From the NCBI GenBank assembly GCA_013696525.1, contig JACCYK010000229.1, positions 1 to 20,632 of the forward strand: 20,632 nt of DNA. Direction: 5' to 3'. The translations under genes and the position numbers were made by a program. The notes under the pieces were generated by a model, which worked only from the letters and a program-made list of their open reading frames with translations, did no database searches and was not told where the DNA came from. Positions 1,016-15,681 of the stretch are shown piece by piece (within the stretch, counting starts at the first letter, position 1; the number at the start of each line of letters is the position of its first letter). Origin of the DNA: Chloroflexia bacterium (GTDB taxonomy: Bacteria; Chloroflexota; Chloroflexia; Thermomicrobiales; UBA6265).

Positions 1016-1903
1016 GTGAGCACGATGGCGCGGACAATCAGCTTCGCCGGCAGGTACGATCAGGGGGCGCGGTCGCGTACCTGGTGGACGCGACTCGCTT
1101 GGATCAACCCGCCCACGGTTGCTGGGCTCTCGATCGTCCTCGTCATCGTCGCGGCCGCCATGGTGGCGCCGGCGATCTCCCGGTACGATCCTACCTTCGG
1201 TGACTTCTCCCAAGTGCTGGCGCCACCGTCAGCGGACCATTTCTTCGGCACCGATGCCTTCGGCCGGGATGTCTGGACCCGCGTCCTCTCTGGCTACCGG
1301 GTCTCCATGCTGGTCGCGGTGTCGTCGGTCTTCGCGGCCGTGGCGGTGGGGCTTCCGCTCGGGATGCTGGCCGGCTTTGTCGGCGGCGCGACCGACAACC
1401 TCATCATGCGGCCGCTCGATCTGCTGATGGCCTTCCCCCCAATCCTGCTTGCCGTACTGCTGATCGCGGTCTTCGGCACCGGCCAAGTGGTCATCATCCT
1501 CGCTCTCGGCTTGATCTACGTGCCGATCATGGCCCGCGTCTTGCGCGGTTCGGTGATCGCGGTCCGTGGCGAAGAGTTCGTGCAAGCGGCGACCGCGATC
1601 GGCGCCACGCCGATTCGGATCATGGCCCGCCACGTCCTGCCAAACAGCCTCGGACCGTTGATCGTCCAGGCTTCGATCTGCATCGGCATCGCCATTTTGA
1701 TCGAAGCATCGCTCTCCTTCATCGGGCTCGGCACGCAACCGCCGGACCCCTCCCTCGGCTCCATGCTGTCCGAGGGCCGCGACTTCATGCGGGATGCGCC
1801 ATGGGTCATCGTCACCCCGGGCCTGGCGATCATGGCCGCGGTCCTTGGCTTCAATCTGCTCGGCGACGGCTTACGCGACGCCCTCGACCACAACCGGCGA
1901 TAA
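1016..1903 (+). CDS. Peptide/nickel-type ABC transporter permease, DppC/GsiD-like
   Basis: Second channel subunit of the importer begun by the upstream DppB-like gene. From the GTG start it has 295 residues, typical of DppC. Features in order: a basic N-terminus, a membrane helix at about 34-54, the periplasmic DppC signature HFFGTDAFGRDVWTRV (75-90) and several further helices. The EAA loop follows at about 187-213 (EEFVQAATAIGATPIR), then SLSFIGLGTQPPDPSLG close to the C-terminus, another DppC hallmark. The start codon is not certain: GTG 1007 and ATG 1025 are in the same frame. The gene is followed 28 bases later by the BPL_N-domain gene, which has its own strong ribosome binding site. The substrate cannot be read from the sequence. 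Confidence 0.92.
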   Translation: MSTMARTISFAGRYDQGARSRTWWTRLAWINPPTVAGLSIVLVIVAAAMVAPAISRYDPTFGDFSQVLAPPSADHFFGTDAFGRDVWTRVLSGYRVSMLVAVSSVFAAVAVGLPLGMLAGFVGGATDNLIMRPLDLLMAFPPILLAVLLIAVFGTGQVVIILALGLIYVPIMARVLRGSVIAVRGEEFVQAATAIGATPIRIMARHVLPNSLGPLIVQASICIGIAILIEASLSFIGLGTQPPDPSLGSMLSEGRDFMRDAPWVIVTPGLAIMAAVLGFNLLGDGLRDALDHNRR

Positions 1904-1917
1904 GCTGGGATGCGAAC

Positions 1918-1924
1918 AAAGGAG
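1918..1924 (+). promoter_or_regulatory. Strong ribosome binding site fixing the start of the BPL_N-domain gene
   Basis: AAAGGAG at 1918-1924 is 7 bases from ATG 1932. This rules out the longer in-frame reading from 1794, which would overlap the permease gene by 110 bases. Confidence 0.8.
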
Positions 1925-1931
1925 CGTGCCG

Positions 1932-3713
1932 ATGAATCAGCTCAGCCCATTAGCCATGGTGATCCCGGTCGCGGACGATTGGGTTTCAGCCTGCTTCGTC
2001 GCCAACCGCTTGCTCCGCGGCGGCGACCGCGTCCTCTGGATCACGGCCTCGCCCACTGATGACGGTCCAGCGGCCGGGAGCTTTCTCGTCCCGCTCGATC
2101 CCGCGTTCGACCCGGGACTGAGCGAACCGGTCGCCGCCGGCATGGTGCTGGAGGTGCTCAGCGACGCCAACGTCAACGCCGTTCCCTTCTCCGGCGACAG
2201 CGTCCGCGCGTCGCCGATTGCTCCGGTCCGAGTTGGGCTCTACGGCGGTGGCGGCGCCCCGTTCAATCACGCCGCGATCATGGCGGCCTGCGGGTTTCCA
2301 TTTCGATTTCTCTCCGACGCGGAGGTGCGGGCCGGTGCGTTAGCCGAGGTCGACGTCTTCGTCGTGCCGGGCGGCGGCAGCCGCGCCATGCACGGCCAGC
2401 TCGAGCCCTTGGGCGAGGATGGCTGCCGGGCGATCGCCGATTTCGTGCGCGATGGCGGCATGTATATCGGCTGCTGCGCCGGAACCTACGATTGCATCGT
2501 CAATTCCGATGCGTTCGTCGCCTCCTGTCCGCCGCAAAAGCATCTTCAGCTCCTGAACGCGAAGCCCTGGCTGGGCGAGTCCGCCGTGGAAATGTTCGGC
2601 ACCATCCAGTCGCCCGGCGTCGGCGTGGTGCTGGTCCGCAACGACAATCCGGACCATCCGGTGATGCTCGGCCTGCCGCCGGTCTTCCCGCTGGTGCATT
2701 ACAACGGGCCGATCCTCGATCCGTTACCGGTCTCCCAAATCCCTGGCGCTTCCGGCGCGGTCGGGCTGGCGAGCTTCGCCGGCGTGACGGACCGGTTCAC
2801 CGCCGCCGAAGACTTTTCCGGCCCCGCCCCGGTGAGCGAGGCAACGTATGTCTCGCTCGGCATCGCGGCCGAGCGCTTCGCCGCCGCCGCCGGAGAACTC
2901 GGTACCGGCCGCGTCGTTGCCTTCGGCTCGCACCCCGAGCTCGGGGCCGACCTGCCGATGGTCGAGTGGTTCGACCCGGCCCGGATGCTGGCGAACGCGG
3001 TGCTCTGGCAGTCAATCTCCCGCCGCGAGAGCGGTGCTCAACCCGCGCCGGCCTCCTCCGCCGGAACGTTGGGGCTGCCGCTCGGCAGCGGCTACAGCAC
3101 CGTGATCGGGCTGGCAAACGATCTTGCCGCCCGCGCCCGAGCCCTGCAACAACTGCCGATTGATCCGCGGCCGGGATGGCTTGAGCCGGACTACGCGATG
3201 TCAATCTTCGGCCTTGCCGCCGACGACATCTGGCGCCAGTCACTGATCGAGATCCAGCCGCTCGCCGACCAGGCCGGGACGCTCAGCCGCGCGCTGTCGG
3301 ATCGAATAGGCCACCTCATGCAACCGGCCGCTCACCCGGTGCCGCCGCTGGTATGCCAGGCGATCACGACCGCCGAGCATCGTCTCCACGACCACCGCGC
3401 CGCCCCCTGGAATCAAGACGGCGGCTACCAGGGCGTCATCGCCCTCCTCCGCGCCGCGATTGCCATGTGCGATGAGGCCGGCGAGCGGTGGGAGATTGAG
3501 CTAGGCCCTCCCGCCGGCGCCTACGGCTACCTCGACACCAATCCCTACCATCTGGTCGCCGGTTCGTACCTCGCCGCGATCGGCAAGGCCGCCGCGGCCG
3601 TGCAGCTACTCCACGCCACCGCCGCGGAGCTTACAATGGCAGAGAAGCTCGCCATGGACAGTCACCATCGCGATGTAGCTTTGCATTTCTTCACGACTGG
3701 ATCGGAGCTGTGA
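1932..3713 (+). CDS. BPL_N-type class I glutamine-amidotransferase-like protein with unknown C-terminal domain
   Basis: A 593-residue protein without a signal peptide or membrane segment. Residues about 98-345 look like the biotin-protein-ligase N-terminal (BPL_N) group of class I amidotransferase-like folds: VRVGLYGGGGAP (99-110), DVFVVPGGGS (141-150), then the nucleophile elbow IGCCAGTYD (179-187) with Cys182 in the G-x-C-x-G position. GSHPELG holds His334 and Glu336 in the usual H-P-E arrangement, so a complete Cys-His-Glu triad is visible. Residues 1-97 resemble the small domain that precedes such a fold in some M14 carboxypeptidase-associated proteins, from memory and with moderate confidence. 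Residues about 360-593 are Ala-rich, probably helical, and unrecognised. It sits directly after the DppBC pair, so a role in processing the imported compound is plausible. The reaction is unknown. Confidence 0.75.
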   Translation: MNQLSPLAMVIPVADDWVSACFVANRLLRGGDRVLWITASPTDDGPAAGSFLVPLDPAFDPGLSEPVAAGMVLEVLSDANVNAVPFSGDSVRASPIAPVRVGLYGGGGAPFNHAAIMAACGFPFRFLSDAEVRAGALAEVDVFVVPGGGSRAMHGQLEPLGEDGCRAIADFVRDGGMYIGCCAGTYDCIVNSDAFVASCPPQKHLQLLNAKPWLGESAVEMFGTIQSPGVGVVLVRNDNPDHPVMLGLPPVFPLVHYNGPILDPLPVSQIPGASGAVGLASFAGVTDRFTAAEDFSGPAPVSEATYVSLGIAAERFAAAAGELGTGRVVAFGSHPELGADLPMVEWFDPARMLANAVLWQSISRRESGAQPAPASSAGTLGLPLGSGYSTVIGLANDLAARARALQQLPIDPRPGWLEPDYAMSIFGLAADDIWRQSLIEIQPLADQAGTLSRALSDRIGHLMQPAAHPVPPLVCQAITTAEHRLHDHRAAPWNQDGGYQGVIALLRAAIAMCDEAGERWEIELGPPAGAYGYLDTNPYHLVAGSYLAAIGKAAAAVQLLHATAAELTMAEKLAMDSHHRDVALHFFTTGSEL

Positions 3714-3958: not shown

Positions 3959-3965
3959 AAGGAGG
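3959..3965 (+). promoter_or_regulatory. Near-consensus ribosome binding site of the binding-protein gene
   Basis: AAGGAGG at 3959-3965 stands 5 bases before ATG 3971. It supports this ATG over Met17 at 4019 and shows that the N-terminal part of this unusual protein has a real translation start of its own. Confidence 0.85.
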
Positions 3966-3970
3966 ACGCA

Positions 3971-5722
3971 ATGAGAAATCGACGTAATCGGCAGGCACCA
4001 ACGGATCAGCGGCTCGCCATGTCCGACCTCAACCGCCGTGATCTGCTCAAACGAGCCGGCGCCGTTGGCGGGGCGACAGTCCTGGCCGGCGGCCTCGGTT
4101 CGCTCGGCGCCGCTTCGGCCGCGGCCCAGGACGGCAGTCGCCGGGTCCGCCAGGTCAGCGTTCTCGTCGAGCCGCAGGCAAACGTGCCGGAGCAGTTCGA
4201 GACGATTCAGCTCTCCGCCCAGCGTCTGCGCGATATCGGCTTCGATATCGAGGTCGCGGTCATGCCCTGGGAGCAACAGAGCGATACCGTTTGGTTCGAT
4301 CGCGAGACCTGGGACATGACCGCCTGGCAGATGGTCGGCCGGCCCGAGCGCCTCGACCCCGACGAGTTCATCTATAACCTCTTCCACTCCTCGACTATCG
4401 AGGATGGCTACAACTTCGTCGGCTACTCGAATCCGGCGTACGACGAGCTCGCGGAGGCGCAGCGGGTCGAGGTCGATCACGAGGCGCGGGTGGAGCTGGT
4501 CTACCAGCTCCAGGAGATCATCGGCGCCGACCAGCCGTACATGTTCGCGGTCTACCCGCACGAGAACTACGCGTTCAGCACATCAGTCTGGGATCCGGCG
4601 ACGGTGGTCGATGCCAAGGGAATCGGGATTAAGAACTACTGGACGTTTGTCGGGGCGGCGCCATTAAGCGACCAGACCGACATGATCCTCAATACCCAGT
4701 CCTCGGTCCAGGCGATGAACCCGCTCTACATTTCGGGCGGCGCCGATTCGTGGGTCACCGAGCTGATCTGGGACCGCCTGATGCGGATCGACGCCGCCGG
4801 CCTGCCCCAACCCTACGCCGCCGAGTCGGTGGAATGGGCCGACGACACCACGCTGGTCGCCACCCTGCGGCCGGACCTGATGTGGCATGACGGGCAACCG
4901 GTCACGGTCGAGGACGTGATCTTCAGCTTCCAGGCCCCGGCCGGCGAGATGTCGCCGATGTACAAGCCGTTCGTGGCCCCGATCGAGGCCGTCACGGCGG
5001 TGGGCGACAACCAGGTCGAGTTCAAGCTGCTGGAGCCCTTTGCCGCCTTCCTCACCTCCGGCCTCTCCAAGCTCAACCTGATTCCGAAGCATATCTGGGA
5101 GCCGGTGCTGGCCGACCTGGCGGAGCAAGGGATCAACGCCGAGCAGTACCAGGAAGAGACGCCGATCGGGTCGGGCCCGTTCAAGTATGTCAACTGGGCT
5201 CGCAACCAGGAGATCATCCTCGAAGCGAACGCGGACCACTTCAATGCGCCCAAGATGACGCGCTGGATCATGCGCGACATGCCGAACGTGGCGGCGGCGC
5301 TGGGCGGTCTCCAGAGCGGCGAAATCAACTTCCTCTCCGACTACACCGGCGACCCGACCCTGCTGCAGCAAGCCGCCGATTCCAGCGACGGCGCCCTCAG
5401 CCTGGTCTCGACCATCGTCGTCGGCTTCCGCTTCCTGGCGCCCAACCACCGCCGCGCCCCGTTCGGCGACGCGGCCGTCCGGCGGGCGATGGCTACCGCC
5501 ATCGGGCGCGACCAGATCCGAATCAATATCTACAAGGATATCTACGCTACCAACGCCGACTCGCACGTCTCGAAGGCGCTGGAAGCCTGGCACGCCCCTG
5601 ACCTGCCGGACTACGCGGTCAGCGACGTTGAAGCCGCCCGCGCGATCCTGGCCGAGGCCGGATACGATTGGGACGACGACGGCTTCCTCCTCTACCCCGA
5701 CGGGCAGACGGAGACGCTGTAA
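3971..5722 (+). CDS. Peptide ABC transporter substrate-binding protein (SBP_bac_5), apparently circularly permuted
   Basis: Exported solute receptor of the importer, 583 residues. The Tat leader is NRRDLLKRAG (21-30) with a hydrophobic stretch to about 50 and AAA-type cleavage near 49-53. After it come features that belong at the end of a normal SBP_bac_5 protein: QLSAQRLRDIGFDIEV (80-94), WDMTAW (114-119), LDPDEFIYNLFHS (128-140), NFVGYSNPAYDEL (148-160) and the following Tyr/Pro-rich strand (about 188-202). Only then comes the normal beginning: NTQSSVQAMNPLYI (241-254), LIWDRLMRIDAAGLPQPYAAE (from 265), LRPDLMWHDGQPVTVEDV (299-316), PIGSGPFKYVNW (398-409) and FGDAAVRRAMATAI (498-511). The protein ends at AEAGYDWDDDGFLLYPDG (561-578), where normal homologues enter the C-terminal segment. 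This reads as a circular permutation. Directly followed by a hairpin and the DppBCDF genes. Confidence 0.88.
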   Translation: MRNRRNRQAPTDQRLAMSDLNRRDLLKRAGAVGGATVLAGGLGSLGAASAAAQDGSRRVRQVSVLVEPQANVPEQFETIQLSAQRLRDIGFDIEVAVMPWEQQSDTVWFDRETWDMTAWQMVGRPERLDPDEFIYNLFHSSTIEDGYNFVGYSNPAYDELAEAQRVEVDHEARVELVYQLQEIIGADQPYMFAVYPHENYAFSTSVWDPATVVDAKGIGIKNYWTFVGAAPLSDQTDMILNTQSSVQAMNPLYISGGADSWVTELIWDRLMRIDAAGLPQPYAAESVEWADDTTLVATLRPDLMWHDGQPVTVEDVIFSFQAPAGEMSPMYKPFVAPIEAVTAVGDNQVEFKLLEPFAAFLTSGLSKLNLIPKHIWEPVLADLAEQGINAEQYQEETPIGSGPFKYVNWARNQEIILEANADHFNAPKMTRWIMRDMPNVAAALGGLQSGEINFLSDYTGDPTLLQQAADSSDGALSLVSTIVVGFRFLAPNHRRAPFGDAAVRRAMATAIGRDQIRINIYKDIYATNADSHVSKALEAWHAPDLPDYAVSDVEAARAILAEAGYDWDDDGFLLYPDGQTETL

Positions 5723-5731
5723 CAAACAACC

Positions 5732-5773
5732 CCCAATTCCGAGGGAACACGGGCATTTCCCCTCGGAATTGGG
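5732..5773 (+). terminator. Perfect 14-bp intercistronic hairpin between binding-protein and permease genes
   Basis: CCCAATTCCGAGGG (5732-5745) pairs perfectly with CCCTCGGAATTGGG (5760-5773), with a 14-base loop, starting 10 bases after the TAA of the binding-protein gene. No T-tract follows, so it is more likely a partial terminator or a 3'-end-stabilising structure than a full stop. Such hairpins after binding-protein genes are known to raise binding-protein levels over permease levels, as in malE-malF. That role here is inference. Confidence 0.7.
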
Positions 5774-5799: not shown

Positions 5800-6795
5800 T
5801 TGCCACCGCGAGCAGTTTACTTCATCCGGCGCCTGGGTCAGATGATCCTCGTTCTCTGGGCGATCGCGACCATTCTCTTTCTGATCTTCCGCTTGATGCC
5901 CGGCAATCCGCTGGTGGCCTTCATCGATCCCACCTTCACGGCGGAGCAGGCTGAGGCGATCTCGCGCCAATTCGGGCTCGATCAGCCGCTCCCCGTGCAG
6001 TACGGCCTCTACCTTAAGAACATCGTGACCGGCAACTTCGGCACATCATTCTTTCAGAAGGAGCCGGTCCTCGGCATTCTCCTCGAGGTCTTCCCGAATA
6101 CGATTCTGCTCACCGGCATTTCGCTGACCGCGGCCTATGTCTTCGGCGTCATCGCCGGCTCAGTCCTCGCCTGGCGGCGCGGCGGCAAGCTGGAAGGCGC
6201 CGGCATCGTCTTCGCCTTGATGACCCGCTCCGCGCCGGAGTTTTTCGTCGGGATGCTGGCGCTGGCGTTCTTCTCGTTCAATCTGGGTTGGTTCCCCTCG
6301 TCGGGCGTTGCCAGTCCGGGCACGATCTACGACTCGGTCTTCCAGCAGCTCACGTCGGCCGATTTTTGGCGTCACCTCGCGCTACCGGCGCTAACGTTGG
6401 CAATCTACCTCCAAGGTTTGCCCCTGCTGCTGATGCGGAGCAATATGTTGGAGGTCCTCGACGAGGATTTCGTCACCATGGCGCGGATGACCGGGTTACC
6501 GGAGTGGCGGGTGATGCTGTCGCACGCCGCCCGCAACGCGCTGCTGCCGATCGTCACCGCCCTCACCCTGGGCATCGGCTACGCCATCGGCGGCAATGTC
6601 ATCGTCGAGACGGTCTTTAGCTGGCCGGGCCTGGGCCGGGTCCTGGTCCGGGCGGTCCAGTCCCACGACTATCCCCTGGCCCAGGGGGCATTCTTCTTGA
6701 TCGCGGTCGTCATCGTCGGACTCAACTTCATGGCCGACATCATCTATAGCGTGCTCGATCCCCGCGTCTCCACCGCTCGCCAGGAGGTCGCCTAA
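5800..6795 (+). CDS. Peptide ABC transporter permease, DppB-like (TTG start)
   Basis: Channel subunit of the second importer, 331 residues. The first membrane helix is at about 14-32, followed by RLMPGNPLVAF (31-41). The segment with FGLDQPLPVQYG (58-69), the conserved TGNFG (77-81), further helices and SRxxP-like patterns follow DppB order. The EAA loop is at about 224-251 (FVTMARMTGLPEW ... RNALLP) and the family ending is WPGLGR (275-280) and VLDPR (318-322). Translation begins with TTG behind TAGGAG. The stop overlaps the next start by one base (TAATG at 6793-6797), so the DppC partner is probably translationally coupled. It is clearly different in sequence from the DppB-like protein at the window start and belongs to a separate importer. 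Confidence 0.93.
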   Translation: MPPRAVYFIRRLGQMILVLWAIATILFLIFRLMPGNPLVAFIDPTFTAEQAEAISRQFGLDQPLPVQYGLYLKNIVTGNFGTSFFQKEPVLGILLEVFPNTILLTGISLTAAYVFGVIAGSVLAWRRGGKLEGAGIVFALMTRSAPEFFVGMLALAFFSFNLGWFPSSGVASPGTIYDSVFQQLTSADFWRHLALPALTLAIYLQGLPLLLMRSNMLEVLDEDFVTMARMTGLPEWRVMLSHAARNALLPIVTALTLGIGYAIGGNVIVETVFSWPGLGRVLVRAVQSHDYPLAQGAFFLIAVVIVGLNFMADIIYSVLDPRVSTARQEVA

Positions 6796-7730
6796 TGCTC
6801 GACGCTGCCTCCGCCCGCTCCGAGCTGACGATTGAGCCGGTGGTTCCGGTCGGTCGCCGGCAGGCGATCGCGACGTCGCTGGGCGGCACGGTCGGCATCC
6901 TGCGGCGGGATCGCTTCGCCCTGGTCGGGGTGGTCATCTACATCCTGTTCATTTTCATGGCGATCTTCGGCCCGGCCCTGGCGCCCCATGATCCCCAAAT
7001 GGTGATGGAGGACGACGGGATTTGGCTGACCAACCAGCCGCCCAGCGCTCAATTCCCGCTTGGCACCACCAACGTCGGCCGCGACATCTTGTCCCAGCTC
7101 ATCCACGGCGCCCGGCCCGCGCTGATGGTCGGCCTCTCCGCCGCCTTCATGGTGGCGGTGGTGGGCACGGTGGTCGGTCTCATCTCCGGCTACTTTGGCG
7201 GCCGCACCGACGCCATCCTGATGCGCCTGACCGATATCGGGTTCGGCATCCCGTTCCTGCCGTTCGTGATCGTGCTGGTCGCTTTTCTCGGTCCCAGCAT
7301 CTGGAATATCGTGCTGGCAATGGGCATCTTGCTCTGGTGCGACACGGCCCGGATCATTCGCAGCCAGGTTCTCACCGTGCGCGAACGGGCCTTCGTTCAG
7401 GCGGCGAAGATCTCGGGCGCCAGCGACTGGCGGACGATCTTCCTCTACATCGCGCCGAACATCCTCTCTCTTTCATTTCTCTACGGCACGCTTGCCATCG
7501 GCTGGGCGATCCTGACCGAGGCCTCGGTCAGCTTCCTTGGCTTCGGCGACCCGGCGGTCGTCAGTTGGGGCTTCATGCTGCAGGATGCCTACGTCAGCCA
7601 GGCCCTGGCCCGGGGCGCTTACTACTGGTTTGTTCCCCCCGGCATCTGCATCATGCTGGCGGTGATGGCCGGGTTCTTCATCGGCCGGGGGTATGAAGAA
7701 TTGCTCTTCCCCCGCCTGCGGGAGCGCTAG
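6795..7730 (+). CDS. Peptide ABC transporter permease, DppC-like
   Basis: Partner channel subunit, 311 residues. After a soluble N-terminus of about 40 residues come a membrane helix (about 43-61) and the periplasmic DppC signature FPLGTTNVGRDILSQLIHGAR (starting at 87). Further helices follow, then the EAA loop at about 199-222 (AFVQAAKISGASDWRTI) and TEASVSFLGFGDPAVVSWG (starting at 241). CAGGAGG at 6781-6787 sits 7 bases ahead of the ATG, inside the end of the upstream gene. The ATPase gene follows 3 bases after the stop. The periplasmic loop (about 65-90) is longer than in the first DppC, with the insertion MVMEDDGIWLTNQPPS, which is common in DppC proteins of this type. Substrate not deducible. 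Confidence 0.93.
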   Translation: MLDAASARSELTIEPVVPVGRRQAIATSLGGTVGILRRDRFALVGVVIYILFIFMAIFGPALAPHDPQMVMEDDGIWLTNQPPSAQFPLGTTNVGRDILSQLIHGARPALMVGLSAAFMVAVVGTVVGLISGYFGGRTDAILMRLTDIGFGIPFLPFVIVLVAFLGPSIWNIVLAMGILLWCDTARIIRSQVLTVRERAFVQAAKISGASDWRTIFLYIAPNILSLSFLYGTLAIGWAILTEASVSFLGFGDPAVVSWGFMLQDAYVSQALARGAYYWFVPPGICIMLAVMAGFFIGRGYEELLFPRLRER

Positions 7731-7733
7731 CCG

Positions 7734-8744
7734 ATGCCCCTGCTCGAGGTTCGGGACCTGACGGTTGAGTACACCACCCAACGCGGCGCCATGCGGGCGG
7801 TCGACGGCGTCTCGTTCGCCGTGGAGGCGGGCCAACACCTCGGCCTGATCGGGGAGAGCGGCTGTGGCAAGTCGACCCTGGGCCGGGCCTTGCTGCGGGT
7901 GCTGCCCCGCAACGGCAGCATCGCCGGCGGTGAGATCCGGCTGAACGACCGCGATCTGGTCACCATTAGCGAAGAACAGATGCGTCGCGCCCGGTGGCGA
8001 GAGCTCAGCATGGTACCCCAATCGTCAATGGACGCCCTCGATCCGGTCTACCGGGTCGGTGACCAGATCAAGGAGGTTCTCACCAATCGCGGGGATTACA
8101 ATCGCCGCGCGGCGCGAGAGCGGGCGGTCGAGCTGTTCGCCCTGGTCGGGCTGGCGAAAGACCGGTTGAGCAACTACCCGCATGAGTTCTCCGGCGGTAT
8201 GCGGCAACGGGCCGTGATCGCCCTGGCCCTGGCCCTCGAGCCCGATCTGGTGGTCGCCGACGAACCGGTGACCGCCCTCGATGTCATCGTCCAGCACCAG
8301 GTCCTGAAGACCTTTCGCGAGCTGCAAGAACGGTTCGATCTTTCGGTCATCATGATTACTCATGACATCTCGGTGGTGGCGGAGACGTGCGACGAGGTCG
8401 CGGTCATGTACGCCGGCAAGATCGTCGAGCAAACCAGCGTCGAGCGCTTCTTTCATCAGCCGTTTCATCCCTACACGCTCGGCCTGCAGAACGCCTACCC
8501 GAGTCTCCACGACGCGAATCGCGTCTTGATCTCGATCGACGGCTATCCGCCGGATTTGATCGATCCCCCGTCCGGCTGCCGGTTCCGGGACCGTTGCCCC
8601 TTTGCGATCGAGCGCTGCCAGCACGAGGAGCCGCCACTAATCGAGGTCGCGCCCGGCCACCGGGCGGCCTGTCACCGCTGGCCCGAGGTTGAGAAGCTTC
8701 GCTCACTGGCCAAGGAGGCCGCCACATGGCAGAAGCGACCATGA
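7734..8744 (+). CDS. Peptide ABC transporter ATPase, DppD-like
   Basis: Cytoplasmic nucleotide-binding subunit, 336 residues. Walker A is GESGCGKST (40-48), the Q-loop is VPQSS (94-98), the ABC signature is SGGMRQ (153-158), Walker B is DLVVADEP (171-178) and the H-loop is His210. All motifs are intact, so it should hydrolyse ATP. The C-terminal extension is the oligopeptide/dipeptide transporter tail with four cysteines, Cys282, Cys288, Cys295 and Cys313, the pattern reported to bind a 4Fe-4S cluster in DppD/DppF proteins. GGAG at 7721-7724 precedes the ATG. The 3' end overlaps the DppF-like gene by 19 bases, as expected for subunits of a heterodimeric ATPase made in equal amounts. Confidence 0.95.
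8712..8718 (+). promoter_or_regulatory. Ribosome binding site choosing the ATG at 8726
   Basis: AAGGAGG (8712-8718) lies inside the DppD-like gene, 7 bases before ATG 8726. A second in-frame ATG at 8741 overlaps the DppD stop (ATGA) but is 22 bases from the site, so 8726 is preferred. Confidence 0.75.
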
Positions 8745-9787
8745 CGAGCTTGGCTGGGCTGGGCCCGCCGGTGATCGACGTAGCAAACCTCGTCAAGCAC
8801 TTTCGTCTCGGCGGCGGTTTGCTCGGCGGCCTCACCGGCGGCGGCCAAGTGGTGCGTGCCGTCAACGGCGTCTCGTTTTCGATCCGGCGTGGCGAGATCG
8901 TCGGCCTGGCCGGCGAAAGCGGCTGTGGCAAGACGACGACCGCCCGCCTCTTGCTCAAACTCTACGCCCCGACCAGCGGCACGATCCGCTTTGCCGGACA
9001 AGACCTGGCCGGGCTACGCGGAGCTGAGCTGAAGGCGTTTCGCCGCCGTACCCAGCTCATGTTTCAAAACCCCTACGAATCATTTAGTCCCCGCTTCACC
9101 ATCCAGCGCTCCTTGCTCGAACCGCTCATCATTCATGGCATCGGCACCAAGGACGAGCAAATAGCGCGAGTTCGGCGGGCGCTCGACGATGTGCAACTGC
9201 GACCGGCGGACAGCTTTCTGGGGAAGCACCCCTATCAGCTCTCCGGCGGCCAGCTTCAGCGCGCGGTCCTGGCCCGGGCCCTCGTCTTGGAGCCCGAGGT
9301 ACTGGTGGCCGATGAGCCGGTCTCGATGCTGGATGTCTCGGTCCGGGCCGGCATCCTCAACACCATGCGCGACCTTTCCCGCGAGCGAAACCTGACCACG
9401 ATTTACATCTCGCACGACCTATCCTTGATCCGCTATCTCTGTGACACCACGGCGATCATGTATTTGGGGCAAATCGTCGAGATCGGCCCCACGGGGGGGA
9501 TCATCGACGAGCCACAGCATCCCTACACCCAAGCCCTGATCGCCAGCATCCCGGTTCCCCGGCCGAACCAGCCGGCGAAGGTCGTCCCGATCCGGGGCGG
9601 CATTCCCAGCGCCATCACCATGCCCACCGGCTGTTCGTTTCACCCGCGCTGCCCCCACGTCATGGACATCTGCAAGATCCGGGCGCCGGCGCCGATTACC
9701 GTCTCCGGGCGTCAAGTGCGCTGCTTCCTGCGAGGGAGCGAGCCCGAATCGGACGTGACAACGGCGGCCAAGAGCGCGGTTGCCTGA
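8726..9787 (+). CDS. Peptide ABC transporter ATPase, DppF-like
   Basis: Second nucleotide-binding subunit, 353 residues. Walker A is GESGCGKTT (63-71), the Q-loop is [11 protein letters not shown] (113-123), the typical DppF/OppF form, the signature is LSGGQLQ (172-178), Walker B is EVLVADEP (191-198) and the H-loop is His230. The C-terminal tail again holds four cysteines, Cys303, Cys309, Cys316 and Cys333, fitting the iron-sulfur site of this subfamily. A Gly-rich insert (29-40, [12 protein letters not shown]) lies between the first strand and the helical part, in the place where DppF proteins often vary. The next gene, an amidohydrolase, follows 23 bases downstream with its own binding site, so transporter and enzymes appear to share one transcript. 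Confidence 0.95.
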
Positions 9788-9810: not shown

Positions 9811-10995
9811 GTGGCTATTGCCATCACAGCGGGGTGGGTGTGGGACGGCACCACGGACGAGGCGATCCGCGACGGGGTCGTGATCGTTGACGGTGAGCGA
9901 ATTGCTACGGTCGGCCCCGCCTCCGTCATCGACATTCCGCGGGATACGGAGATCGTGGACCGCGGCGACGAGTTCGTGTTGCCCGGCTTAATTGACGCCC
10001 ACACTCACATCTCGATCATTCCGGGTCACGGCGACCAGATTGGCCAACTGCTGCAACCGGTCGAACGGCAGGCGATTCGCGGCGCCGGCAATCTTCGCCG
10101 GATGCTTCGCACCGGGGTCACCACCGCGCGAATCATGGCCGAGGAGCACTGGCTCGATGTCGCGTTCCGGGACGAGATCAACCGGGGCACCACGCCCGGT
10201 CCCCGCCTCACCATCTGCACCCGGGCGATCACCCAGAGCAACGGCCACGGTCGCGCCATCTCCACCGCCGACGGCGTCGACGAGGTGCGGCGCGCGGCCC
10301 GCCAGAACCTGCACGCCGGGGCCGACTTCCTGAAACTCTTCATTACCGGCGGCGTCAGCTCGACTCGCGGTGGCGGCATCCGGGCGGCGAGCTATTCGCG
10401 AGAGGAGATGCGGGTCGCGGTGGAAGAAGCCGACCGGGCCGGCACCTATGTCGCCGCCCACGCGATCGGCGGTCCCGGCATCCGGATCGGGGTCGAGGAA
10501 GGGATTCGGACCATCGAGCACGCCCTGTTGGCCACCGATGACGACCTCGAACTTATTAAGGAGCGCGGCGCCTGGGTGGTCTTGACGCAGGCCATCCTGC
10601 TGCATCCAACCGGCATCGAACAGGGCGACCGGCACAACCCGGTCGTGATGACGAAACTCCACGACGCCCGCGCCACCGCCGCCGAGCGATTCCGCGCCAT
10701 CGTCGCCTCCGGCGTGAAGCTGGCGGTCGGGACCGACAGCATGCACGGTCTCCTCCAATTCGAAGTCGCCAAGCTGGTGGAATGGGGCGCCGGCCCCGCC
10801 GCCGCCTTACGCGCCGCCACCGTGGATGCCGCCGCCTGCTGCCGCCTGGAGGATCAGATCGGCACCCTGGAACCGGGCAAGCTCGCCGACCTGATCGCGG
10901 TCAAGGGGAACCCGCTCGACGACATCGCGGCGCTGGACCAGGTCGAGCTGGTGATGAAAAGCGGCCAACGCTACGACCACTTGTCGGTCGCATAG
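9811..10995 (+). CDS. Metal-dependent amidohydrolase, imidazolonepropionase/prolidase-like
   Basis: A 394-residue amidohydrolase-superfamily enzyme (PF01979 type). The N-terminal beta domain (AGWVWDGTTDEAI ... VDGERIATVG) leads into VLPGLIDAHTHIS, with His64 and His66. The other expected metal ligands follow: Lys175 in FLKLFITGG (carboxylated lysine position), His217 in AAHAIGG, His237 in IEHALL and Asp309 in VGTDSMHG. This set matches the binuclear zinc subgroup whose characterised members hydrolyse Xaa-Pro, Xaa-Arg or similar N-acyl and dipeptide substrates. The GTG start follows GGGAGGA (9796-9801) by 9 bases. No signal peptide is present, so it acts in the cytoplasm. Position right after a peptide importer suggests it hydrolyses the imported compound or a fragment of it. 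The exact substrate is unknown. Confidence 0.88.
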   Translation: MAIAITAGWVWDGTTDEAIRDGVVIVDGERIATVGPASVIDIPRDTEIVDRGDEFVLPGLIDAHTHISIIPGHGDQIGQLLQPVERQAIRGAGNLRRMLRTGVTTARIMAEEHWLDVAFRDEINRGTTPGPRLTICTRAITQSNGHGRAISTADGVDEVRRAARQNLHAGADFLKLFITGGVSSTRGGGIRAASYSREEMRVAVEEADRAGTYVAAHAIGGPGIRIGVEEGIRTIEHALLATDDDLELIKERGAWVVLTQAILLHPTGIEQGDRHNPVVMTKLHDARATAAERFRAIVASGVKLAVGTDSMHGLLQFEVAKLVEWGAGPAAALRAATVDAAACCRLEDQIGTLEPGKLADLIAVKGNPLDDIAALDQVELVMKSGQRYDHLSVA

Positions 10996-11034: not shown

Positions 11035-12825
11035 ATGGCAATCACGGTGCCGGTAAACCAGGGCACTGAGGACACGATGCGCGCCGCCTGTACGATCGAC
11101 GTTTCCTGGGATCTCCTCGAACGGTTCAGCTCCCTCGTTCGCCTCTCGGGCAGCGACGAGGAGCGTCAAGCGTTCGACTACATCGCCGCGCGGCTCGACC
11201 ACTTCGGCGTGCCCTACGCTTTGGAGACGACGACTCAGTTCATTAGCTGGCCGCTCGCCGCCACGCTCCGGGTCGCCGGCGACGACGGCGCAACATTCAT
11301 GGCGAAGACGCCGGCGATGTCGGTCTCGACCGGAGGCCGCGAAATGGAGGCCGAGGCGGTCTACCTCGCCACCGGCTATGCCTCTGGCGTCAGCGACTTC
11401 TTCACCGCCAAGGAGCTACCCGGCGGCGACCTGACCGGCAAGATCGTCATTACCGAGGGGATGGCGATGCCGACTAAGGTCGGCGAGATCGCCGCCCGCG
11501 ACGCCATCGCGGCGGTCTTCGTCGGGCCGGGTGAGCGCATCCATGAGGGCATCAGCACCACGATCTGGGGCTCACCCGACCTCGATTCGATCGATCGCCA
11601 GCCGGCGATTCCAATCATCAGCGTCAATCGGCCTCACGGCCTGGACCTGATCGAACGGGCCAAGTCCGGCAACCTCCGTCTTGCCTATTCAACCAATCTC
11701 GACACCCGATGGCGCCCAATCCCGATCCTGGTGACGGAGATCCATGGGGCGACACTCCCCGGCGAGTTTGTCCTCGTCCAGGCTCACCTCGACTCCTGGC
11801 ACGCCGGCATCGGCGACAACGCCACCGGCAACGCCGCCCTCCTGGAACTGGCCCGCGTCCTCCACCAGCATCGCGATCAGCTCCAGCGATCAGTCCGGCT
11901 CGCCTGGTGGAGCGGTCACAGCCACGGCCGCTACGCGGGGTCGACCTGGTACGCGGACACGCACGCGATCGACCTGGACGAGAACGGCGTCGCCCAGGTG
12001 AACTGCGATTCACCCGGCTGCCGCTGGGCCACCGTCTACGACAATATGATGTGGACCGAGGAAGCCGCCCCGCTGGTCATCAGTGCCGTGCGGGATGTTA
12101 CCGGCGTGGAACCAACCTGGACCCGGCCGCTGCGGGCCGGCGACTATTCGTTCAACAACCTGGGTCTCTCCGGCGCCTTTATGTTAAGCAGCACCATGCC
12201 GGACGACCTTCGGGCCGAGAAGGGCTACTACCCGGTGGGAGGGTGCGGCGCCAACATCGCCTGGCACACCGAGGACGACACCCTCGAGATTGCCGACCGC
12301 GACCACCTGCTGCGCGACATCCGGGTCTACCTCACCGCGATCCTCCGGCTCGCGAATAGCCCGGTCAGCCCGTTCGATTTCCGCCTCCTGCTTAGCAGCA
12401 TCGAACAAACCCTGACCGACTACCAGGCGCGGCTCGGCACCCACTTCGATCTCGCGCCGGCCACGGCCGACATCACGGCGCTACGGACCGCGCTTGACAT
12501 CTTTTACGACCGATTCGAGGAGCTTTCGGCGCTCGATCCAACCGACCCGGCGGCGCGATCGGCCGCCGCCGTCCAGCGCGAGCTGGCCCGTCTCCTCGTC
12601 CCCATCAATTACAGCCGCGAGGGTCGGTTCGCCCAAGACCCGGCTGAAACGGTCCAGGCGCTGCCGGACCTCGCGATCGGGTTGACGGCCGCGATCCTGC
12701 CGGCCGGCTCACATCAGTACCAGGCGGCGCTGGTCAGCCTGCAACGCGGTCTCAACCGGCTGCGCTGGACCCTGCGCCGGGCAACCACCGTCGCTCTGGC
12801 AGGCGGCCGTGAGGCAGGCGTATGA
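11035..12825 (+). CDS. M28-like (PA-domain) metallopeptidase homologue, copy 1
   Basis: A 596-residue cytoplasmic protein with no signal peptide. Order: N-terminal peptidase segment (about 20-110), inserted PA-like domain (about 115-235, with DLTGKIVITEGM and the IWGSPDLDS loop), the M28 core (about 240-440) and a helical C-terminal domain (about 445-596) in the place of the dimerisation domain of glutamate-carboxypeptidase-II-like enzymes. M28 metal positions are readable: His251 and Asp253 (AHLDSWHAG), Asp261 (IGDNATGN), Asp325 (VNCDSPG) and His411 (AWHTEDDT). The usual catalytic Glu-Glu is absent: the aligned stretch is WWSGHSHGRYAGS (291-303). Activity is therefore not certain. GGAGG lies 10 bases before ATG 11035; Met15 is an alternative start. 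It overlaps the next gene by 4 bases and has a close paralogue two genes on. Confidence 0.85.
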   Translation: MAITVPVNQGTEDTMRAACTIDVSWDLLERFSSLVRLSGSDEERQAFDYIAARLDHFGVPYALETTTQFISWPLAATLRVAGDDGATFMAKTPAMSVSTGGREMEAEAVYLATGYASGVSDFFTAKELPGGDLTGKIVITEGMAMPTKVGEIAARDAIAAVFVGPGERIHEGISTTIWGSPDLDSIDRQPAIPIISVNRPHGLDLIERAKSGNLRLAYSTNLDTRWRPIPILVTEIHGATLPGEFVLVQAHLDSWHAGIGDNATGNAALLELARVLHQHRDQLQRSVRLAWWSGHSHGRYAGSTWYADTHAIDLDENGVAQVNCDSPGCRWATVYDNMMWTEEAAPLVISAVRDVTGVEPTWTRPLRAGDYSFNNLGLSGAFMLSSTMPDDLRAEKGYYPVGGCGANIAWHTEDDTLEIADRDHLLRDIRVYLTAILRLANSPVSPFDFRLLLSSIEQTLTDYQARLGTHFDLAPATADITALRTALDIFYDRFEELSALDPTDPAARSAAAVQRELARLLVPINYSREGRFAQDPAETVQALPDLAIGLTAAILPAGSHQYQAALVSLQRGLNRLRWTLRRATTVALAGGREAGV

Positions 12826-13896: not shown

Positions 13897-15681
13897 ATGA
13901 CCGTCGTTGCTCAGAAACCGATTTCCGCGTGGAAGGATGAGCCACTCGAACGCGCCATCCTGGACGAGGTTTCGCTCGACACCGCCTGGCCGGTGCTAGA
14001 AGCATTCTCGTCGCTGGTCCGCTTGTCGGGGTCAGCCCAAGAGCGAGAAGCGTTCGACCTCCTGGCTCATCACCTGGCAGCGTGGGGCGTGCCCTACACA
14101 TTGCACGAGCCAGAGCTGTTCATCTCCATTCCCCTCACCGCCACGGTGCGAGATCCCGCCTCCGGCACCTCGTTTCGAGCCAAGACATCGGCCATGTCCC
14201 GGCCCACCAACGGTGAGATCGAGGCCGGGCTGGTCTATCTTCCCGCCGCGACCGACGCCGACCTCGACGATGTCGTCTCGGGCGCCGTGCAGCTCAGCGA
14301 TCTCGACGTCACCGGCAAGATCGTCATCACCGAGGGCATGCCGTTCCCCGGCATCGTCACCGCCGTCACCGACGCTGGAGCCCTCGCCGGCATTTTCATC
14401 GCGCCCGGCATCGACATCCACGAGACCATCTGCACCACCGTCTGGGGGACGCCCGATCTCGACTCCGAGCAACACATCCCGACCCTGCCGGTGGTCGCGG
14501 TCAACAATCCGGACGGTCTGCGCCTGATCGACCTTGCCAAGCAAGGCGGCGCCGTCGCCATCTCGAGCGAGGTCGACACCGGCTGGCGCACCATTCCGAT
14601 CCTGGTCGCCGAAATCCCCGGCGCCGTCGTGCCCGACGAGTTTGTCCTCCTCCACGGGCACGCCGACTCCTGGCACGCCGGGGTTGGAGACAACGCCACC
14701 GGCAATGTCACCAAGCTGGAGCTGGCCCGCGTCCTCTGGCAGAACCGGGCGGATCTCGCGCGATCGGTCCGGATCGCCTGGTGGAGCGGCCATAGCCACG
14801 GTCGTTACGCGGGCTCGACCTGGTACGCGGACCAAATCGGGATCGACCTGGCGCTCAATTGCGTGGCTCAGATCAACTGCGACTCCCCCGGCTGTCGCTG
14901 GGCGGACACCTTCAACGACCTGACCTGCATGAGCGAAGCGGAGCCGTTCGTGGACACCACGATCCGCGACATCACCGGAATTACGCCGGCCACCGAGCGG
15001 CCGGTCCGGGCCGGGGATTACTCGTTCAACCAGATCGGGATCACCTCGTACCTGATGCTGTCGTCCACCATGTCCGAGACGAAACGGGAGGAGCTCGGCT
15101 ATTACCGGGTGGGAGGATGCGGCGGCAACATCGCCTGGCACACCGAGCACGACACCCTCGACATCGCCGATCGCGATAACCTCCTCCGTGACATGCGCCT
15201 CTACGCCGCGATCGTGTTGCGCACCGCGAACGCGCCGCTCCACCCCTTCGATTGGCGCCGGACCACGGCCGACATGGAACGAACCATCAACGACTACCAA
15301 GAAGCGGCGGGAGAGGCGTTTGATTTTGCGGCAACCAGGGCGGCGCTCGCGAGCCTCGATCTCGCCCTCACCGATTTCTACCAGGATGCTTCCGACAAGA
15401 CCGACCCCTCCGCGCCAGAGGCTCGGACCTTCAACAAGATTCAACGGCGGCTGGCCCGCCTGCTGGTCCCGGTCAATTACAGTCGGATGGCGCCCTTCTG
15501 GCACGACCCGGCGCTGCATGTGCCGGCGTTGCCCGACCTCGCTCCGGCCCTGACCGCTGCAACTTTGGCGAACGAGCCCGACCGGGCCGGCATCTTGCGC
15601 GCGCACTTGACTCGCGGTCAAAATCGTCTCGTCTGGACGCTGATCGAAGCGTGCGACCTGGTAACCGGCACCTTGGCCTAA
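13897..15681 (+). CDS. M28-like (PA-domain) metallopeptidase homologue, copy 2
   Basis: A 594-residue paralogue of the protein encoded two genes upstream, colinear over its full length and, by eye, roughly half identical. Retained M28 positions are His255 and Asp257 (GHADSWHAG), Asp265 (VGDNATGN), Asp329 (INCDSPG) and His415 (AWHTEHDT). As in copy 1, Glu-Glu is replaced: WWSGHSHGRYAGS (295-307). The PA-like insert carries the same DVTGKIVITEGM and VWGTPDLDS elements. The N-terminus has about 14 extra residues before the shared part, and no signal peptide. AAGGAG (13884-13889) is 7 bases before the ATG, 16 bases after the dehydrogenase gene. The two copies may form a heteromer or divide substrates. 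A divergent enzyme or pseudo-enzyme role cannot be excluded. Confidence 0.85.
   Translation: MTVVAQKPISAWKDEPLERAILDEVSLDTAWPVLEAFSSLVRLSGSAQEREAFDLLAHHLAAWGVPYTLHEPELFISIPLTATVRDPASGTSFRAKTSAMSRPTNGEIEAGLVYLPAATDADLDDVVSGAVQLSDLDVTGKIVITEGMPFPGIVTAVTDAGALAGIFIAPGIDIHETICTTVWGTPDLDSEQHIPTLPVVAVNNPDGLRLIDLAKQGGAVAISSEVDTGWRTIPILVAEIPGAVVPDEFVLLHGHADSWHAGVGDNATGNVTKLELARVLWQNRADLARSVRIAWWSGHSHGRYAGSTWYADQIGIDLALNCVAQINCDSPGCRWADTFNDLTCMSEAEPFVDTTIRDITGITPATERPVRAGDYSFNQIGITSYLMLSSTMSETKREELGYYRVGGCGGNIAWHTEHDTLDIADRDNLLRDMRLYAAIVLRTANAPLHPFDWRRTTADMERTINDYQEAAGEAFDFAATRAALASLDLALTDFYQDASDKTDPSAPEARTFNKIQRRLARLLVPVNYSRMAPFWHDPALHVPALPDLAPALTAATLANEPDRAGILRAHLTRGQNRLVWTLIEACDLVTGTLA

Follow-up and report, generated by a model that had tools for sequence, protein, structure and literature searches.

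Does the binding-protein gene of a putative peptide importer in a Chloroflexia bacterium really carry the two halves of its fold in reversed order, and, if so, is this an oddity of one draft genome or an established variant of family 5, a very large family of nutrient receptors? The gene lies in a window of 20,632 nucleotides, by which we mean the whole stretch of DNA analysed (contig JACCYK010000229.1 of assembly GCA_013696525.1), and the coordinates of its features are collected in Table 1. The initial annotation, made from the sequence alone, had described the encoded protein as circularly permuted within one gene that has a ribosome site and a Tat leader in front and a hairpin behind. The three flanking signals are indeed there: an AGGAGG precedes the start codon, the two arginines of the leader are residues 22-23 (nt 4034-4039), and a perfect inverted repeat of 14 bp with arms at 5732-5745 and 5760-5773 follows the gene (-28.1 kcal/mol, z -4.27). 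Because no T-run accompanies this hairpin in the sequence, its status as a terminator is uncertain; it may govern how much receptor is made relative to transporter.

Table 1. Positions in the window of the permuted binding-protein gene, its parts and its neighbours
Feature	Position	Strand	Details and basis
Shine-Dalgarno-like AGGAGG	3960-3965	+	5 nt upstream of ATG; read from sequence
Binding-protein gene	3971-5722	+	single unbroken ORF, 583 aa
Leader, residues 1-54	3971-4132	+	twin-arginine motif NRRDLLK; from translation
Canonical C-terminal part, now first, residues 56-206	4136-4588	+	
Clade signature RPERLDP (R..R.DP), residues 124-130	4340-4360	+	motif counts across clade-A rows
Joint of old C-terminus to old N-terminus, residues 207-237	4589-4681	+	gap between two profile matches
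Canonical N-terminal part, now last, residues 238-583	4682-5719	+	
Hairpin between binding-protein gene and oppB	5732-5773	+	perfect 14-bp inverted repeat; read from sequence
oppB-type permease	5800-6795	+	PF00528 and PF19300
oppC-type permease	6795-7730	+	PF00528 and PF12911
oppD-type ATPase	7734-8744	+	PF00005 and PF08352
oppF-type ATPase	8726-9787	+	PF00005 and PF08352
Amidohydrolase	9811-10995		
M28 peptidase	11035-12825		
M28 peptidase, second	13897-15681		

Along the protein, PF00496 (SBP_bac_5) scored 204.9 bits over two stretches (cut-off 32.4) and was the sole Pfam match at E ≤ 0.001. In a search of the own genome, profile positions 2-288 matched nt 4805-5710 (E 7.3e-54) and positions 285-365 matched nt 4136-4396 (E 7.2e-6), the latter match scoring by itself below the family cut-off. 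Together they account for nearly all of the 368 positions and join at profile position 285-288 with no gap left, the C-terminal part standing ahead of the N-terminal part; a single colinear hit was looked for and was absent. The swapped order was equally obtained against the solved AppA (1xoc), where residues 237-578 correspond to chain positions 23-357 (i-E 8e-30) and residues 82-202 to positions 380-495 (i-E 2e-9, improving to 1e-14 when 110 aligned sequences, the query among them, were used as the profile). It was obtained once more when 14 canonical binding proteins of the own genome served to build the profile: residues 238-570 matched model positions 90-410 (196.2 bits), residues 69-206 matched positions 424-555 (60.4 bits), and residues 4-54 gave a weak match to the canonical leader (14.6 bits). 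Each canonical half occurs once and is nearly complete, and a short linker connects what used to be the two ends of the chain; because the halves complement each other, the arrangement is a permutation rather than a duplication. The new termini fall within the hairpin behind the '...A-G-Y-x-W-D-x-D-G' element, where the initial annotation had placed the cut. On these profile matches the protein is filed as a permuted variant of PF00496; linear order defines the usual topology of SBP_bac_5, not homology. None of the NCBIfam equivalogs Opp4A, Opp5A_NikA, DppA and OppA scored above its model cut-off, the best being Opp4A with 99.8 against 650. The own genome yielded 40 PF00496 matches, 2 of them from the permuted gene, and a search with the protein found no second gene matching it end to end in this assembly of 78.6% completeness, from which one could be missing.

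The AF2 model of the protein (pLDDT 88.9, pTM 0.84) has the family-5 fold, with a poorly modelled leader (pLDDT below 50 across residues 1-53). A whole-model structure search keeps sequence order, so the two parts were matched one at a time and not under a common superposition; searched in this way, they fall side by side on solved family-5 proteins, with the seam at AppA 356/359. With Foldseek alone the first piece gave weak matches, 8 of them at E ≤ 0.001 and the best at E 3e-5. No permuted member appeared among the solved chains listed, which were the best 60 of 95, or the best 60 of 104 when the profile was used.

Homologues with the same order were found both among proteins and in genomes. 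The protein search scored 7996 candidates, 1286 of them at E ≤ 1e-3, and we have taken the best 120, among which P0002 is the window's own protein. The permuted order with this cut was present in 120 of 121 proteins (the query plus the best 120 of 1286), the lone exception, P0065 (372 aa), being a fragment of the N-part. The scan of genome contigs kept the best 80 loci and thus gives a lower bound; a permuted frame was found in 69 of these, a partial one in two (L051 and L087) and a canonical one in nine (L092-L100). When 191 permuted rows were pooled (L130 duplicates L069, and L051 is a piece), the C-part started at model positions 395-439 in 188 and the N-part ended at 405-419 in 189. The carriers include cultured Brevibacillus, Martelella, Neorhizobium and Alkalispirochaeta, and the gene is also found on a Haladaptatus plasmid recorded as complete. 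In two Pseudomonadota drafts (L051 and L062) the permuted gene is split into two frames. The source names of the matched proteins are those of plain substrate-binding proteins, and the permutation is unmarked there.

Almost all permuted rows belong to a single lineage, which we call clade A. Trees were made after restoring the canonical order of the halves, and the tree of 157 rows took in 64 of 66 canonical rows and 93 of 191 permuted ones, the latter being those from loci that reach 380 aa and, from the database, every fifth protein. In the whole tree, 92 of 93 permuted rows formed one clade with none of the 64 canonical rows (support 1.0), and the N-part by itself gave the same 92 of 93 (support 0.998). 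The tree of the C-part was weaker, with 90 of 92 rows in the clade (support 0.731) and L088 and L090 outside. The signature R..R.DP occurs in 179 of 190 clade-A rows and in one of 66 canonical rows, and R124 and R127 are invariant in the 110-sequence alignment. Exceptions to clade A are two long-branched rows, L131, placed among canonical rows, and L132, placed beside the canonical L093/L096; joining L131 to clade A was not rejected (AU p 0.17). L131 is a stretch of 4001 bases from the genome of the Brevibacillus locus L025, whose frame 1103-2920 is a very divergent permuted family-5 lipoprotein-like gene, the second in that genome. L132 and L133 are divergent permuted binding proteins in the haloarchaeal genome of L076, which together with L076 holds three.

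The spread of clade A is wide and patchy. Counted by phylum, with L051 added and L090 removed, its 69 loci comprise 40 from Pseudomonadota, seven from Bacillota, six from Chloroflexota, four from Methanobacteriota, three from Spirochaetota, two from Deinococcota, one each from Thermomicrobiota, Armatimonadota, Sysuimicrobiota, Actinomycetota and Bathyarchaeota, and two from bacteria without a named phylum. Nine named phyla of bacteria and two of archaea are represented, and L090 adds Thermoproteota as a third archaeal one. In the phylum of the window, 3 of 301 genomes had a member, counting the own genome, as did 12 of 289 genomes of the class of the Roseibium genome that holds L047, itself included, one of these 12 being a piece that covers query 308-582 only; with a threshold of E ≤ 1e-45 and no more than four candidates scored in each genome, both surveys miss divergent members. 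The initial annotation had presented the locus as one odd gene: the permuted gene itself is real, but it has many relatives in an old and large clade, next to which a separate permuted archaeal group exists. The rearrangement is real and conserved in transporters of bacteria and archaea.

The gene is followed, here and in its relatives, by the components of an importer, which in the window are two permeases and two oligo_HPY ATPases. Among the 57 loci that extend 5.2 kb or more downstream, oppB, oppC and oppD adjoin the permuted gene in 55, the order being B-C-D-F in 40, B-C-D in 14 and B-C-F-D in one (L090); of the two loci where no transporter genes follow, L052 has them on the other strand. 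The permease follows the same division as the receptor, because 62 of 63 OppB partners of permuted proteins fall in one clade with none of the 40 partners of canonical proteins (support 0.999). Three of the seven OppB that had no assigned partner join them, and each of the three lies in a locus whose binding protein is permuted or partial. As judged from these trees, the permuted clade travels with its own permease branch. The ratios of dN to dS in the mature part (0.015-0.17 in seven of nine near pairs, dS being saturated in the remaining two) indicate that the permuted gene is under purifying selection. Of the 63 loci long enough to show one, 26 have a frame most like one of the window's M28 peptidases, and these peptidases, together with the nearby amidohydrolase, suggest a diet of peptides or N-acyl amino acids.

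These data bear on two ways in which the gene could be less than it seems. The source genome is a draft of 689 contigs with many family-5 genes, a setting in which the end of one binding-protein gene could have been fused to the start of the next by assembly or gene calling. The same joint nevertheless recurs in the 120 of 121 best proteins and the 69 of 80 best loci counted above, isolates and the replicon recorded as complete among them, and an artefact would leave neither a conserved operon nor the mark of purifying selection. Misassembly at the joint is excluded because independent genomes share it, and we give an artefact of any kind practically no chance. The protein might also be a receptor or sensor that no longer feeds a transporter, as its ligand may differ from that of OppA: the segment with R124 and R127 lies, we assume, about where OppA has the Asp that holds the amino group of the peptide. 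The adjoining oppB, oppC and oppD genes in 55 of 57 loci and the separate clade of the permease partners point instead to a dedicated importer, and make a role detached from transport very improbable. With high confidence we regard the product of the gene as a functional binding protein of family 5 (cluster C, SBP_bac_5) that was permuted in nature and serves an Opp/Dpp-type ABC importer, with its halves swapped and its termini in the inter-half hairpin.

Such a protein would be exported by its twin-arginine leader here, and by other leaders elsewhere, and would fold as an ordinary two-lobed (Venus-flytrap) receptor. It would bind a peptide-like solute and dock on OppBC, and ATP hydrolysis by OppDF would drive the import of the solute. 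From the position of the two arginines, one guess would be a ligand with an anionic group. The permutation would leave the fold unaltered and would move the exit of the chain, and any tether, from lobe I, which we take to bear the old termini, to lobe II, which we take to bear the new ones; the leader would now stand ahead of the strand that formerly came after the hairpin, and the chain would end in that hairpin. Anchoring is not the general reason for the permutation, because a search for a simple lipobox-like pattern picked out no more than 31 of 190 clade-A rows.

The outlier of the tree, L090, comes from a Thermoproteota archaeon and leads to a second group. Among the 120 relatives listed for it, the profile shows 39 as permuted and 77 as canonical, with four undecided; leaving out P0207, P0213 and P0216, which go with clade A, and P0202, which has a different cut, gives a set of 35 permuted proteins in what we call clade B. 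This group around L090 and P0122 has the same halves swapped at the same hairpin as clade A, but it forms a separate clade and differs by its own C-terminal membrane anchor and by the absence of R..R.DP, found in none of the 35 permuted rows (nor in the 77 canonical relatives). In L090 a proline-rich linker and a membrane helix follow the new C-terminus, and an anchor was recognised by eye in L090 and in all eight permuted clade-B members viewed. P0202 (588 aa) has residues 3-260 on model positions 310-558 and residues 285-471 on positions 87-268, and continues with a linker and membrane anchor; because it has no leader, its gene call may be cut at the 5' end.

Forcing clades A and B together cost 338 log-likelihood units on a quick tree, and a single clade was rejected (AU p 3e-9). 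The simplest reading of the sequences would be two separate permutations, unless the order was also lost in between. In clade B the canonical rows are nested within permuted ones, and a single clade of the permuted rows, a group named after a tree had been seen, was rejected with all rows (p 0.0015) and without the long rows (p 0.006), and was not rejected on the N-part columns only (p 0.081). Either one lineage returned to the canonical order or the permutation was gained several times. We can only tentatively propose, as a possibility somewhat short of even, that permutation at the lobe II hairpin recurs and can be reversed, with at least two independent permutations (the bacterial-haloarchaeal A and the archaeal B) and a later reversal in one B lineage. 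If true, a circular permutation would have made its round trip in nature. Clade B, having canonical and permuted close relatives, would offer a tractable system for studying how permutations arise and possibly revert.

Concerning the origin of the order, tandem duplication, in-frame fusion and trimming of the ends, as the initial annotation had supposed, give a plausible route as far as the sequences indicate. Tandem family-5 genes do exist (two adjoin in L092) and would be raw material for it, and the separate archaeal group used the same hairpin. No redundant-end, N-C-N-C or over-long intermediate was seen among the proteins examined, in a search that left proteins much longer than the query outside. 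The profile overlap in some archaeal members, up to about position 446, a candidate for vestigial duplicated ends, proved residue by residue (P0132, P0138, P0164) to consist of linkers and membrane anchors, and eight L090 relatives of over 700 aa, candidates for double proteins, hold one family-5 unit each. The lack of intermediates and redundant ends would also fit a change of order without tandem duplication, in which the C-terminal segment was moved behind the leader or taken from another family-5 gene; the leader still stands in front, so at least two joints have changed. A foreign C-part would have to come from close kin, since the tree of the C-part gives nearly the same clade. Weighing these points, we consider relocation or replacement of the segment the less likely route, and prefer duplication and fusion.

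Compared with known PF00496 proteins (AppA, DppA, OppA and NikA; cluster C), the present protein shares profile positions 2-365 of 368, the predicted fold and the OppBCDF partners, and differs by its swapped halves, by termini in the inter-half hairpin and by the R..R.DP signature. No permuted family-5 binding protein was reported in the titles and abstract openings listed by searches of openly licensed papers. The closest parallel is Tp0684/MglB-2 of Treponema pallidum, which the excerpt of its description used here presents as a naturally permuted sugar-binding receptor of cluster B, for which 'Type Ic/Cluster Bc' was proposed, with the first three strands of the N-lobe moved and a fourth hinge crossing added, and with related proteins across phyla and a similarly distributed permease (PMC4990184). 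Judged from that excerpt, both cases are natural permutations of an ABC-importer binding protein with cross-phylum spread and a matching permease distribution, whereas MglB-2 is a cluster B sugar receptor of another family with an unrelated cut, and the present protein is not of the MglB-2 type. It is the cluster C counterpart of that variant, by an unrelated event. As this conserved and selected branch shows, a large two-lobed receptor tolerates natural permutation at a single hairpin, and the permuted form can be kept across domains of life. It also provides a natural experiment on whether chain order, or the lobe that bears the tether, matters for fold, closure and permease docking.

Elsewhere in the window, positions 1-1903 hold a second oppB-oppC pair upstream, whose binding protein would fall beyond the end of the contig. 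A frame of 639 aa at 1794-3713 overlaps that oppC by 110 bases and has only a short BPL_N-like match (46 residues); its true start is probably further in. On the minus strand, an open frame of 529 aa at 14032-15621 runs antisense to the second M28 peptidase gene and is likely a by-product of base composition.
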